NCBI GenBank assembly: GCA_029559155.1
Contig: JAKQCM010000128.1
Location: 1-39,735, forward strand
DNA length: 39,735 nucleotides
Reading direction: 5' to 3'
From: Chloroflexota bacterium
GTDB taxonomy: Bacteria > Chloroflexota > Anaerolineae > Promineifilales > Promineifilaceae
The translations under genes were made by a program, and so were the position numbers. The stretch's first letter is position 1; each line of letters begins with the position of its first letter. Shown here piece after piece: positions 9,905 through 14,841 of the stretch. The notes beneath the pieces were generated by a model. It saw nothing but the letters and a program-made list of their open reading frames with translations. It ran no database searches and was not told the origin of the DNA.

Positions 9905-11743
9905 TTGGTTGGCTGGCAGATGAGAGATAGGAAACATTCATTACCGGATGCCGCCCTGCGTCTGGTCAATTCGCCAATCTGGTCTACAATCCTGCCCGTG
10001 AAAATTAAATCGTTGACTTCCTCGCCGCTGCTTCTTTATTTGCTGGCGCTGTTCACTTTTTTGGCGGTTTCAGGCTTGGTGGCCTGTCATCCGGTTTCTG
10101 CTTCCAACGAGAACCAACCCCCGACGGCCGTTCCTACCCAGGCCTCACCCACAGCCACCGCTACCCAGCTGCCACAGGCAACGTTTACCCCGCCGCCCAC
10201 GCCCACGGCCGCCCCAACGGCCGTGTCCACCCTCGTTCCCACACCGCCGCCGCCACAGTTTACCAACCTGCGCGACGACGCCTGGGCGCAAACGGCCGTG
10301 ACCTACAACGCCGAATTTTTCCTCCCCGAACCGGCCAACACCGGCCTGTGGCAGTTTGCCGCCAACACCTTCATTCATCCTCTGGCGCTGGTGGCGCACC
10401 AGGAAACCGCCTATTTGCTCGATGCCGGCCGCGTGCTTGCTTTCAATCTGGCCCAGCCCGCGCCGCCGGAGCAGCTTCTCGCGCCCGGCGATGTTGTGGA
10501 TGGCGTGATGGTGATCGAGCCGCTGGACATTTATGCCGCCCCCGATGGCTTGCTGGCGCTGGATCGCGCCGGTGATGTTTACCGCCGCGATTGGCTGAGC
10601 CAGACCTGGACTTTGGAACGCGACGACCGGCCGATTCGGGACACATCCAGCCATTATTATGTGGCGCTGGATGGGCTGGGCGACGGCCGTTACCTTCTGG
10701 AAACCAGTTACAAATATGTGATGCAGGTTGTGGATGGCGTGCAGCAGTCGTTGTGGATGCTGCCGGAAGCCCGCGCCGTGGACGTTTCCGCCGCCAGCAG
10801 CCCTGCCGCCGCCGAAAATGTGTACGTTTTGCTGCAAGAGATGGATACCCAGGCGGGCAGCCTGCATCTTTACCGCGACACGGCCAGCTTGCCCACGTTT
10901 CGTTCCCCAGACATGATCTCCCAGCCACGCCAGGTTGTAGCCGCGGCCACGGCCGTTTACGTGTTAGACAGCGACGGCCGTCGCCTGCTCGTTCTGTCGC
11001 CCGATTCCGGCCAGCTGCGCCAGCTTTGGCAGCTCCCGGCCGAAGTCAGCGCCGTGGCCCTGACAGAAGCAGGCGATCTGCTTTTTGCCGGCCGCGACCG
11101 TCTCTATTTTGCCAACCGGCCAGAACGGCTGGCAGCCATCACCGGCGGCGCGCCCCTGCCCAACCCGCAGCCCCACGATCCCGCCTTCCTGGCCAGCATC
11201 AGCGGCTTTGTCTCGCCGATTGGCCCCAACATTTCCACCCGCGATCTGCAAATGCCCGGCGCGCCCCGCCATTACCGCCTCGGCGTCCACCAGGGAGCCG
11301 ATTTCTATTGGAGCGTCGGCTCGCCGGTGTATGCTGCCGCCGCCGGCACCGTCATTCGCGCCATGCATGATTACGCGCCGCCATTCCCGGCCGATTTTTT
11401 CAACTGGCAGGCAGAGGCCCAGCAGTTGGGCTATACCTCAGAAGCCGGGCTGGATTTTTATCGCGGGCGGCAGGTGTGGATTGAGCATGACAACGGTCTG
11501 GTGTCACGGTACGTTCACCTCAGCAGCATCGACTACGGCATTCAGGAAGGCCAGCCGGTGGCTCAGGGACAGCTCATTGGCGCGGTCGGCAATTCCGGCT
11601 CCCCCTCCTCGCTGGAAAGTGAAGATTCGGATGCCCACCTGCATTTTGAGTTGTGGCTGGGTGATCATTACATCGGTCAATTTTTGCGCCCGGTCGAAGC
11701 CCGCGATTGGTTCGAGCGCATTTTGTTGGGACGGCAACCATGA
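9905..11743 (+). CDS. Lipoprotein with low-complexity P/T linker and C-terminal M23 (LytM-like) peptidase domain
   Basis: Lipobox VSGLVACHP; P/T-rich linker; HQGADFYWSVGSPVYAAAAGTVIRA ... GRQVWIEHDNGLVSRYVHLS ... DAHLHFELW. The true start is probably downstream of the ORF start (about 9999). Confidence 0.85.
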   Translation: MVGWQMRDRKHSLPDAALRLVNSPIWSTILPVKIKSLTSSPLLLYLLALFTFLAVSGLVACHPVSASNENQPPTAVPTQASPTATATQLPQATFTPPPTPTAAPTAVSTLVPTPPPPQFTNLRDDAWAQTAVTYNAEFFLPEPANTGLWQFAANTFIHPLALVAHQETAYLLDAGRVLAFNLAQPAPPEQLLAPGDVVDGVMVIEPLDIYAAPDGLLALDRAGDVYRRDWLSQTWTLERDDRPIRDTSSHYYVALDGLGDGRYLLETSYKYVMQVVDGVQQSLWMLPEARAVDVSAASSPAAAENVYVLLQEMDTQAGSLHLYRDTASLPTFRSPDMISQPRQVVAAATAVYVLDSDGRRLLVLSPDSGQLRQLWQLPAEVSAVALTEAGDLLFAGRDRLYFANRPERLAAITGGAPLPNPQPHDPAFLASISGFVSPIGPNISTRDLQMPGAPRHYRLGVHQGADFYWSVGSPVYAAAAGTVIRAMHDYAPPFPADFFNWQAEAQQLGYTSEAGLDFYRGRQVWIEHDNGLVSRYVHLSSIDYGIQEGQPVAQGQLIGAVGNSGSPSSLESEDSDAHLHFELWLGDHYIGQFLRPVEARDWFERILLGRQP

Positions 11744-13572
11744 CGCCAAAGGAAGCCCGCCGCCACGCTCTGACCCGTCAGATAGCCCGCCTGGATGGTC
11801 GCCTGGCGGCTCTGCGCCGCACCAGCGATACCTTGGCGCGTTGGCGGCTGGGATCGTTTTTGGCGGCTGTCGGCCTATCGGCATATAGTTTGCTGACCTG
11901 GGGGATTTGGGCCTGGGTAGGGGTAACGGCCGTCGCCATTCTCCCTTTCATCCTGTTTGTCCGCGCCCACCGAACCATCGAAGAAGCTGTCAGCCGTCAT
12001 GACATCTGGCGGCGCATCAAGCAAACCCACGTGGCCCGCATGAGCCTGGATTGGTCGCAAATTCCCGCGGCCTCGCCTGTGCCGTCGCGGTTGGACCATC
12101 CCTTTGCCCTGGACCTGGATCTGGTGGGCGACCATTCATTGCTGCAGTTGTTGGACACGGCCGTTTCCCTGGAAGGCAGCCAGCGGTTGAGCAGTTGGCT
12201 GCTGGACACCAATCCCCAATTGACCCATATTGCCGCGCGCCAACCGCTTGTCGCCGAACTGGCGGCGATGCCCCGCTTCCGCGACAAACTTGCCCTATAC
12301 GCCACTCTGGCCACCGCCGACGATGGCGAAAAATGGCCCGGTCAGCGCATCCTCGCCTGGCTGGAAAGCCGCGCCGAGGCCAAATCGGTGCGCCCTGCGC
12401 TGTGGGTGTTGTCTGGTCTGGCGGTTGTCAATCTCGGCCTGTTGGCGTTGAATCTGGCCGGGGTGCTGCCGGTTTTGTGGCCCTACTCCTGGCTGGTCTA
12501 TGCCCTGATTTACGCCGCCCGCTCGCGGGATGTCCCGGCTGTGTTTGAGGACGCCTATTTTTTGGAGAAAAACTTGCGCCGCCTGGGTACGGTTTTTGGC
12601 TTTTTGGAGACGTACCGCTACGGCCGTCGAACACAGGTGGCGGCTTTGTGCGCGCCGTTTTTGGCCGCCAGGGAACGGCCGTCGGCCCATTTGCGCGCCG
12701 TTACCAAAGTTCTCACCCTGGCCGGTCTGCGCCAAAATCCCTTCCTCTGGCTCTGGCTTAACGCCCTGATGCCCTGGGATTTGTTTGTGGCGGATCGCCT
12801 GGATGCCTGTCGGCGAGCTTTGCAAACACGCCTGCCGGGCTGGCTGGATCGCTGGTTTGAGCTGGAAGCGCTGAACAGTCTGGCAACGTTCGCTTATCTG
12901 AACCCGGAAACCAGCTATCCAGACATCCAGGCGGATGGCGGACCACTGCTGGCGGTTACGGCCGTTGGCCATCCCCTCATCGGCCATTCGGGACGGGTGT
13001 GCAATGATTTTCGCATCACCCATTTGGGCGATATCGCCATCATCACCGGCTCCAACATGGCCGGCAAAAGCTCGTTTCTGCGGACGTTGGGGGTGAATCT
13101 GGTCCTGGCATATGCCGGCGGGCCGGTTGTGGCCCAATCTTTTGCGGCGCGGTTGTTCCGTCTGTATACCTCCATCCGGGTTAGCGATTCGGTGACGGAT
13201 GGGTTTTCCTATTTTTATGCCGAAGTGCGGCGGTTACAAGGCTTGCTAGCGGCGTTGGAAGAGGCGGATGAACGGCCGTTATTTTTCCTCATCGACGAGA
13301 TTTTTCGGGGAACAAACAATCGCGAGCGCCTGATTGGCAGCCAGTCGTTTGTGCAGGCATTGGTCGGCGGGCGCGGCGTGGGGCTGATTGCCACCCACGA
13401 CCTGGAATTGGTGAAGCTGGCCGATGAGAATACGGCCGTTAGCAATTTTCATTTCCGGGACGATGTGGTAGACGGCCAGATGGTCTTCGATTTCCGTCTT
13501 CGCCCTGGCCCATGCCCTACCACCAACGCCCTCAAAATCATGCGTCTGGCCGGCTTGCCTGTGAACCTGTAG
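11740..13572 (+). CDS. Membrane-anchored MutS-family ATPase (MutS domain V without the mismatch-recognition domain)
   Basis: Two hydrophobic helices near the N-terminus (LGSFLAAVGLSAYSLLTWGIWAWVGVTAVAILPFILFV), a further hydrophobic stretch, then Walker A ITGSNMAGKSSFLRTLGVN, FSYFYAEVRRL, Walker B LFFLIDEIFRGTNNRER, ATHDLEL. Start overlaps the upstream stop (ATGA at 11740). Confidence 0.85.
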   Translation: MTPKEARRHALTRQIARLDGRLAALRRTSDTLARWRLGSFLAAVGLSAYSLLTWGIWAWVGVTAVAILPFILFVRAHRTIEEAVSRHDIWRRIKQTHVARMSLDWSQIPAASPVPSRLDHPFALDLDLVGDHSLLQLLDTAVSLEGSQRLSSWLLDTNPQLTHIAARQPLVAELAAMPRFRDKLALYATLATADDGEKWPGQRILAWLESRAEAKSVRPALWVLSGLAVVNLGLLALNLAGVLPVLWPYSWLVYALIYAARSRDVPAVFEDAYFLEKNLRRLGTVFGFLETYRYGRRTQVAALCAPFLAARERPSAHLRAVTKVLTLAGLRQNPFLWLWLNALMPWDLFVADRLDACRRALQTRLPGWLDRWFELEALNSLATFAYLNPETSYPDIQADGGPLLAVTAVGHPLIGHSGRVCNDFRITHLGDIAIITGSNMAGKSSFLRTLGVNLVLAYAGGPVVAQSFAARLFRLYTSIRVSDSVTDGFSYFYAEVRRLQGLLAALEEADERPLFFLIDEIFRGTNNRERLIGSQSFVQALVGGRGVGLIATHDLELVKLADENTAVSNFHFRDDVVDGQMVFDFRLRPGPCPTTNALKIMRLAGLPVNL

Positions 13573-13614
13573 ATTTGCGATTTACGATTTGCGATTTGCG
13601 ATTTACGATTTGCG
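13573..13614. repeat. Heptanucleotide tandem array, 6 copies of ATTT(G/A)CG
   Basis: atttgcg-atttacg-atttgcg-atttgcg-atttacg-atttgcg, starting directly after the stop codon at 13570-13572. Confidence 0.95.
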
Positions 13615-13640
13615 ATTTTGGGGTTGGGGGATAATATCCA

Positions 13641-13682
13641 ATCTCTAATCTCTAATCTCTAATCTCTAGTCTCTAGTCTCTA
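13641..13682. repeat. Heptanucleotide tandem array, 6 copies of (A/G)TCTCTA
   Basis: atctcta x4 then gtctcta x2, ending 16 bp before the next start codon. Confidence 0.95.
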
Positions 13683-13698
13683 ACGTACAGAAGCATCC

Positions 13699-14841
13699 AT
13701 GAAAATTCTTTGTGTAGATATTGGCACCGGCACGCAGGATATTTTTTTATACGATTCGCGCCTGGACATTGAAAACGGCTTTAAGCTGGTTGTGCCCTCG
13801 CCCACGATGATGGTGCACCATCGTATACAAGAGGCCACACGCCGGGGAACGGCCGTTGCCCTCACCGGTCTTACCATGGGCGGCGGCCCCAGCCAATGGG
13901 CCGCCGAAGCGCACCTGCGCGCCGGTTGGCCGCTTTACGCCACGCCCGCCGCCGCCCGTTCCTTCAACGACGACCTGGACGTGATCCGCGAGATGGGCAT
14001 CACCCTGGTGAGCGACGACGAACTGGCCGCCTTGCCAGGCGACGTGCAGCGGCTCTCGCTGCGTGATTTTGATTTTGGAGCGATTGATCGGGCGATGGGT
14101 GAATTTGGCGTCTCTCTGGCAGACGTAACGGCCGTGGCCGTTGGCGTGTTCGATCATGGCAATTCACCGCCGGATTACTCCGACCGTCTCTTTCGTTTCG
14201 ACTACATCCGCCAGCGGGTGCAGGCCAACAACCGCCTCAGCGCCTTTGCCTACCGCGCCGCCGACGTGCCGCCCATCATGACGCGTTTACAAGCCGTGGT
14301 GCAGTCTGCCCAGAACATCGACGCGCCGCTGGTGGTGATGGATACCGCTCCGGCCGCCGTGTTAGGGGCGCTGATGGACACGGCCGTGCGCGCCGAACCG
14401 CGCATCCTCATCGCCAATCTGGGCAATTTGCACACGCTCGCCTTCCGTGTTGGTCCCACGGGCATCGAAGGCGTCTTTGAACACCACACCGGCCTGCTAG
14501 ACCGGCCCCGGCTCGACGATTTGCTGTATCGCCTGGCGGATGGCAGTTTGCTGCACGACGCCGTCTACCAGGACCATGGCCACGGCGCGTATATTCCTCA
14601 TCGCCAGCCGTTGCCTTTGGGGAACGGCCGTTTTGATGTGGCTGTCACCGGTCCACGGCGGGCGCTGATGGCCGGGTCGGGCTTACGGCCGTATTTCGCC
14701 GCGCCATTTGGCGATATGATGCTCGCCGGCTGTTTTGGCCTGCTCGCTGCCACCGCCGATTTGCTGCCCGATCTCGCTCCTGCCATCCGCGCCTCGCTCT
14801 ACACCACCGGCGGCAGTTCCGCCGCCCCCTGGGATTTTTAG
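13699..14841 (+). CDS. DUF1786-family protein (ASKHA-like fold suspected)
   Basis: MKILCVDIGTGTQDIFLYDSRLDIENGFKLVVPSPT...LTGLTMGGGPSQWA...AVGVFDHGNSPPDYSDRLFRFDY. Confidence 0.75.
   Translation: MKILCVDIGTGTQDIFLYDSRLDIENGFKLVVPSPTMMVHHRIQEATRRGTAVALTGLTMGGGPSQWAAEAHLRAGWPLYATPAAARSFNDDLDVIREMGITLVSDDELAALPGDVQRLSLRDFDFGAIDRAMGEFGVSLADVTAVAVGVFDHGNSPPDYSDRLFRFDYIRQRVQANNRLSAFAYRAADVPPIMTRLQAVVQSAQNIDAPLVVMDTAPAAVLGALMDTAVRAEPRILIANLGNLHTLAFRVGPTGIEGVFEHHTGLLDRPRLDDLLYRLADGSLLHDAVYQDHGHGAYIPHRQPLPLGNGRFDVAVTGPRRALMAGSGLRPYFAAPFGDMMLAGCFGLLAATADLLPDLAPAIRASLYTTGGSSAAPWDF

Follow-up and report, generated by a model that had tools for sequence, protein, structure and literature searches.

Heptamer repeats have so far been reported piecemeal, from Calothrix, Nostoc, Xanthomonas, the Beggiatoaceae and trnL introns. 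Among the heptameric short tandem repeats (STRRs) of cyanobacteria, the unit CCCCART is present in Calothrix and Nostoc. In Xanthomonas, heptamer repeats lie near stop codons and form 70-75 convergent pairs, with few in divergent gaps, and their lengths differ between species; the units described for Xanthomonas and Nostoc are GGGAATC and GGGGA(C/T)T (Rehm et al., 2015; PMC4692102). In addition, the P6b arms of the Nostoc trnL intron are built of Class I (TDNGATT) or Class II (NNTGAGT) heptads, which are replaced wholesale (PMC4476775). Earlier work, as cited in two of these studies, links the over-representation of heptamers to polymerase slippage (PMC4692102; PMC4679880). The study by Rehm et al. 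covers no Chloroflexota (PMC4692102), and no report of heptamer repeats in this phylum was found in the open-access literature, which is not proof of their absence.

The window analysed here, a stretch of 39,735 nucleotides, belongs to a 5.8-Mb, 519-contig Chloroflexota genome (G000). Between a gene for a MutS-like protein and one for a DUF1786 protein (Table 1), the gap reads (GATTTRC)6 - spacer - (RTCTCTA)6. The original prediction described this gap as filled by two arrays, one of six ATTTRCG units (13573-13614) and one of six RTCTCTA units (13641-13682), which proved exact both in the sequence and by Tandem Repeats Finder; direct reading also confirmed that each array uses two unit variants and that the second ends 16 bp upstream of the ATG. 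The first array was further said to start right after the stop codon. This holds for the coordinates given and can be refined, as in the GATT frame common to all relatives the TAG stop (13570-13572) contributes the G of the first unit, GATTTGC. In the GATTNNN frame, the unit order of the left arm is TGC-TAC-TGC-TGC-TAC-TGC, which Tandem Repeats Finder also scores as a perfect 21-bp repeat, and the right array consists of four ATCTCTA units followed by two GTCTCTA units. The period-7 scores of 34 and 28 far exceed the maximum of 12 reached when the whole window was block-shuffled 100 times, so the arrays are not a product of chance. They had been regarded as two independent direct-repeat arrays, a framing that has to be abandoned: the two carry one pattern on opposite strands and together make up a single inverted element, (GATTNNN)n - spacer - (NNNAATC)n, in which two period-7 arms share a GATT/AATC core. 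The end of the left arm and the adjoining spacer (13616-13630, TTTTGGGGTTGGGGG) contain two long G-runs, which are partly kept in a genome of the same genus (TTTTGGGGCTGG).

Table 1. Features of the MutS-DUF1786 junction, in window coordinates.
Feature	Position	Strand	Basis and remarks
MutS domain V protein gene (610 aa)	11740-13572	+	Pfam PF00488, E=3e-25; upstream neighbour
Left arm: six GATTTRC heptads and the start of a degenerate seventh (GATTTTG)	13572-13618	+	Tandem Repeats Finder, period 7 and 21
Inter-arm spacer, about 22 bp, includes GGGGTTGGGGGATAATATCC	13619-13640	+	Direct reading
Right arm: six (A/G)TCTCTA heptads (minus-strand reading GATTAGA/GACTAGA)	13641-13682	-	Tandem Repeats Finder, 13632-13683
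16-bp leader from right arm to start codon	13683-13698	+	Direct reading; without promoter-like site
DUF1786 protein gene (380 aa)	13699-14841	+	Pfam PF08735, E=2.6e-72; downstream neighbour

A genome-wide search for both heptamers, as had been proposed, revealed two dispersed families. In G000, three consecutive units of the first heptamer were matched at 37 positions, corresponding to roughly 17 arrays, and three of the second at 52 positions, or about 20 arrays, the arrays being counted by hand from the places of the matches. The genome contains dozens of similar elements. In a 587-kb sample of it, period-7 arrays passed the threshold 66 times and other periods 4-11 times, while periods 14 and 21, both multiples of 7, gave 46 and 32 arrays; four of the period counts are the same in the shuffles and probably stem from runs of N. 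Some contigs of this sample were picked because they carry arrays, so that the density is biased and the contrast among periods is the informative quantity. Related units catalogued include GATTGGA, GATTAGA, GACTGGA, GATTTGC, GATTTAC, GAGTGCG and GATGCGT. At the level of the family, a five-unit GAYTNNN pattern was found in 37 of 52 genomes; in G000 it matches at 419 positions, compared with 3 for a reversed-letter control. The control matches are numerous in a few genomes of the family (e.g., G001 and G051), so other heptads are present there. The HIP-like octamer that had been remarked on alongside the heptamers is also real. The palindrome ACGGCCGT occurs 97 times in the window (e.g., at 59, 1526 and 13849), whereas base composition predicts 1.0 occurrence; the 587 kb contain 1231 copies of it and 103 of the next palindromic octamer. 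It is a HIP1-like highly iterated palindrome in Chloroflexota.

Comparison with a congener, G031, showed that copy number differs between relatives. At the orthologous junction, the left arm reads TGC-TAC-TGC-AGC-TGC, five units versus six in the window, and the right arm has about three degenerate units versus six. Five orthologous element loci could be read in both genomes. Four of them keep the element and its polarity with changed units, including one where a left arm of (GATTTGC)6 in G000 is mostly of the GATTGGA/GATTTGA type in G031. At the fifth, the heptad element of G000 (L049:1496-1589) corresponds to a different perfect palindrome, AGACCCCAAGGGTTTG...CAAACCCTTGGGGTCT, in G031 (L143:18869-18958). 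Unit number and even unit class change among congeners, while position and polarity stay. The two heptamers are thus neither confined to this place nor invariant, as both recur genome-wide and their copy number differs in G031. In more distant genera with DUF1786 homologues, the MutS-DUF1786 junction is not kept.

The arms of these elements follow a strict order. In samples of G000 and G031, neighbouring arms within 50 bp were arranged plus then minus in 31 cases and minus then plus in none. Both arms belong to the same unit class in 19 of 25 pairs (13.5 expected, p=0.0006), the window element being one of the mixed-class minority (6/25). Mirroring of unit order among GTDB hairpins lay slightly above shuffles at fixed anchors (outer units 0.540 vs 0.511, inner units 0.550 vs 0.492), and the excess was absent at the best shift; the idea that the arms derive solely from exact palindrome copying was rejected on these grounds. 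Single plus arms are nearer to the left gene in 28 of 36 cases and single minus arms nearer to the right gene in 30 of 34 (p=2e-8), as expected if single arms represent elements whose other arm has decayed. The unit that flanks the arms on the outside is often AATTNNN (48 of 160 arm ends, L150-L229 hairpins), as if marking the outer edge of the element. A further class of heptads, GATGCGT, whose core is not GANT, occurs in inverted pairs under the same polarity rule (L089:5434-5497, L066:10774-10837 and L079:1818-1875).

Gene placement was assessed with genes called by a simple codon-usage script rather than a standard gene finder. Among 113 intergenic elements with both neighbours, 92 lie in tandem, 17 in convergent and 4 in divergent gaps, compared with 613, 70 and 175 background gaps of at least 100 bp; divergent gaps are hence depleted of elements (4/113 vs 175/858, p=1e-6). 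Clusters overlapping called genes, some of them perhaps caller errors, make up about a quarter in G031 (27/109) and 7 of 48 in G000. The same type of element adjoins many other genes, at both ends of gaps and in either gene orientation. This breadth bears on the original prediction that the copy number of the second array could affect DUF1786 expression, which would make it a contingency locus. The 16-bp distance to the ATG and the altered copy number in G031 speak for such a role; yet no promoter-like site was found on the coding strand of the gap and no intrinsic terminator (GC-rich stem plus T run) on either strand, and the arms are not specific to one gene. The proposal is therefore neither supported nor needed, and we consider it very improbable.

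The same placement would be explained by selection for RNA structure, with the transcribed arms folding into a hairpin by which the upstream transcript is terminated or protected, hence arms after stop codons and not at divergent promoters. The preference for tandem and convergent gaps fits this explanation, as do the different perfect palindrome at one orthologous site in G031 and a predicted RNA fold of the window copy that is somewhat better than shuffles (z=-1.55). The DNA fold of that copy, however, is no better than shuffles (z=-0.02), by which a stable hairpin was rejected there; the predicted pairing of the arms is chiefly GATT to AATC, and the spacer self-pairs weakly. When fold energies of both strands were compared through the asymmetry of G-U and A-C, the sense strand was the more stable in 11 of 21 two-arm elements, and selection on sense-strand RNA was rejected. 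Furthermore, the gap holds no terminator-like site, the Rfam search of the window copy returned no family at gathering score and one chance-level match, and mirrored complementarity beyond composition is slight. Given the weak fold, the even strand result and the slight mirroring, strict conservation does not extend to base pairing, and selection for a transcribed structure appears unlikely.

Beyond this family, a four-plus-four-unit hairpin pattern searched in 84,980 species genomes gave at least 117 stretches; the matches listed include Chloroflexota, Acidobacteria, Bacteroidota, Planctomycetota, Verrucomicrobia, Cyanobacteria, Xanthomonadaceae, Gemmatimonadetes, Omnitrophota and CPR lineages. 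The cyanobacterial genomes with the GATT hairpin pattern are those of Nostoc, Dulcicalothrix, Brasilonema and Microseira. Across 301 Chloroflexota genomes, GATT-first pairs match at 838 positions in 19 genomes of 8 families (hand sums), the opposite polarity at 6 positions in 3 genomes and the reversed-letter control at none; the match positions overlap, so that elements are fewer than positions. The opposite polarity was seen in 3 of 26 named genomes, all of which carry GATT-first pairs by selection. Polarity was checked fully for GATT only, with CTAA as the reversed control. Viral contigs contain 72 matches to GATT, none to the reversed polarity, 28 to TAGT and 4 to GTAT, so GATT is the commonest of the tested cores and not the sole one. 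Outside the viral contigs, a CTAA pattern at 422 positions in Microseira is a further case of another core. TAGTNNN heptads (TAGTGGT, TAGTGGA) form inverted arms of a second core type in viral contigs (L331-L357).

The heptads may also be phased DNA sites for a widespread protein recognising GATT or a related core, for instance a nucleoid or repair protein, with the architecture selected and the NNN letters free. Across phyla the core is kept and NNN varies, in a sample partly selected for the core, position and polarity are retained in orthologues, and polarity is fixed in the wider genome and viral searches. On the other side stand the lack of a candidate protein, the patchy presence (37 of 52 family genomes, and pairs in 19 of the 301 sampled Chloroflexota) and the existence of other cores, namely the TAGT heptads of viral contigs and the GATGCGT class of G000. 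A protein-binding role is accordingly judged improbable.

Spread as a mobile unit is suggested for some relatives by a single genome, that of Acidobacteria bacterium 13_1_20CM_3_53_8 (G366), in which many copies of roughly 64 bp with heptad arms (e.g., C24:54027-54090) occur in both orientations with a similar spacer (about GGAAGAAGCGGAAAGCTTTTAA) and vary in the NNN letters. These copies, along with the resemblance of the inverted pairs to REPINs (PMC3116915), favour a dispersed REPIN- or MITE-like element whose heptad arms are copied as a unit. However, G000, which is among the array-richest genomes and 93% complete, has no match to the Y1 transposase (PF01797), which disfavours a REPIN origin, and G026 has three Y1 matches and no arrays. 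As Y1 presence does not track array counts, a RAYT-driven REPIN was rejected. The spacers of G000 do not look shared by eye, and the orthologous loci of G000 and G031 showed no empty site bearing a duplication. Altogether, mobility is a rather improbable explanation for the elements considered here.

The account that we favour, and hold to be somewhat likelier right than wrong, is that of one bipartite heptad element that is driven by slippage and tolerated at gene ends, rather than a switch specific to DUF1786. Under this slippage account, the element would be related both to the cyanobacterial heptameric STRRs and to the convergent heptamer pairs found in Xanthomonas. To judge from the two congeneric genomes, the arms would gain, lose and homogenise units through replication slippage in 7-bp steps, and a perfect 21-bp duplication such as that of the left arm is what slippage or unequal exchange produces. 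The second arm probably arose from the first as a hairpin-templated (snap-back) copy that later evolved independently, an origin, likewise suggested by the two genomes, that would explain why the arms are usually of the same class yet weakly mirrored. The element would then persist presumably because its position, directly behind a stop codon and ahead of a gene in the same direction, tolerates insertions. Slippage alone predicts neither a GATT core across many phyla nor a polarity of 838:6, and an architecture that is conserved despite the turnover of units could reflect selection.

A more speculative possibility, in our estimate also improbable, is that inverted GATT-type heptad pairs constitute one class in most bacterial phyla and that a dedicated strand-specific process makes them. 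In each pair, the G/T-rich strand would always run inward from both sides, by analogy with telomere repeats fused head to head, and the arms may have arisen as 3'-end extensions on either side of a chromosome break that was later joined. Were such chromosome-end extension true, the mixed-class pairs (6/25, window included) would represent two independent extensions.

At the level of the locus the result is modest: copy number is variable, and nothing found shows control of the neighbouring gene. The wider value lies in the arrangement of (GATTNNN)n facing (NNNAATC)n, whose almost exceptionless polarity in Chloroflexota and many other phyla turns scattered reports into one testable class and raises the question of what holds GATT and its direction while three bases drift and the arms turn over within a genus.

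Several known systems resemble the element in part. REPINs and REP pairs are also short inverted pairs scattered between genes, but they lack a heptad period and are thought to depend on RAYT transposases (PMC3116915). The TAACTGA repeats of Beggiatoaceae are intergenic heptamer arrays near start codons with a patchy distribution across phyla, but they form direct arrays of one fixed heptamer that are almost never inverted (PMC4679880). The nearest relatives so far described are the convergent pairs of Xanthomonas, the CCCCART/GGGGAYT repeats of Nostoc and the trnL P6b arms of Nostoc. The P6b arms are inverted heptad arms with GATT or GAGT cores, and whole arms are swapped for another class between close relatives; GATTTRC of the window fits GATTTDN, and GAGTGCG of G000 fits GAGTNNN. 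Unlike the present element, they occupy a single site within an intron whose structure requires base pairing.

The suggested parallel with cyanobacterial STRRs holds: in both cases tandem 7-bp units are present in many dispersed intergenic copies, here with copy number varying between genomes of the same genus, and a GAYT core is common to the window element, the Nostoc repeats and the TDNGATT arms of the trnL intron, as CCCCART is the complement of GAYTGGG. The window units, GATTTRC and GAYTAGA, are not those of CCCCART STRR1 proper; they differ in their letters (TRC and RGA classes), and most descriptions of STRRs concern single direct arrays. The heptamers of Xanthomonas and Nostoc correspond in period, in intergenic location near stop codons, in rarity at divergent genes and in frequent convergent inverted pairs, and they likewise keep their position while length changes among related species. 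They are, however, G-rich and can form G-quadruplexes, whereas the quadruplex G-tracts are missing here, the twelve units of the window having no G-run of three, and the window element pairs two different heptamers. It is thus a non-G-quadruplex, mixed-arm variant of the known heptamer repeats, in Chloroflexota.
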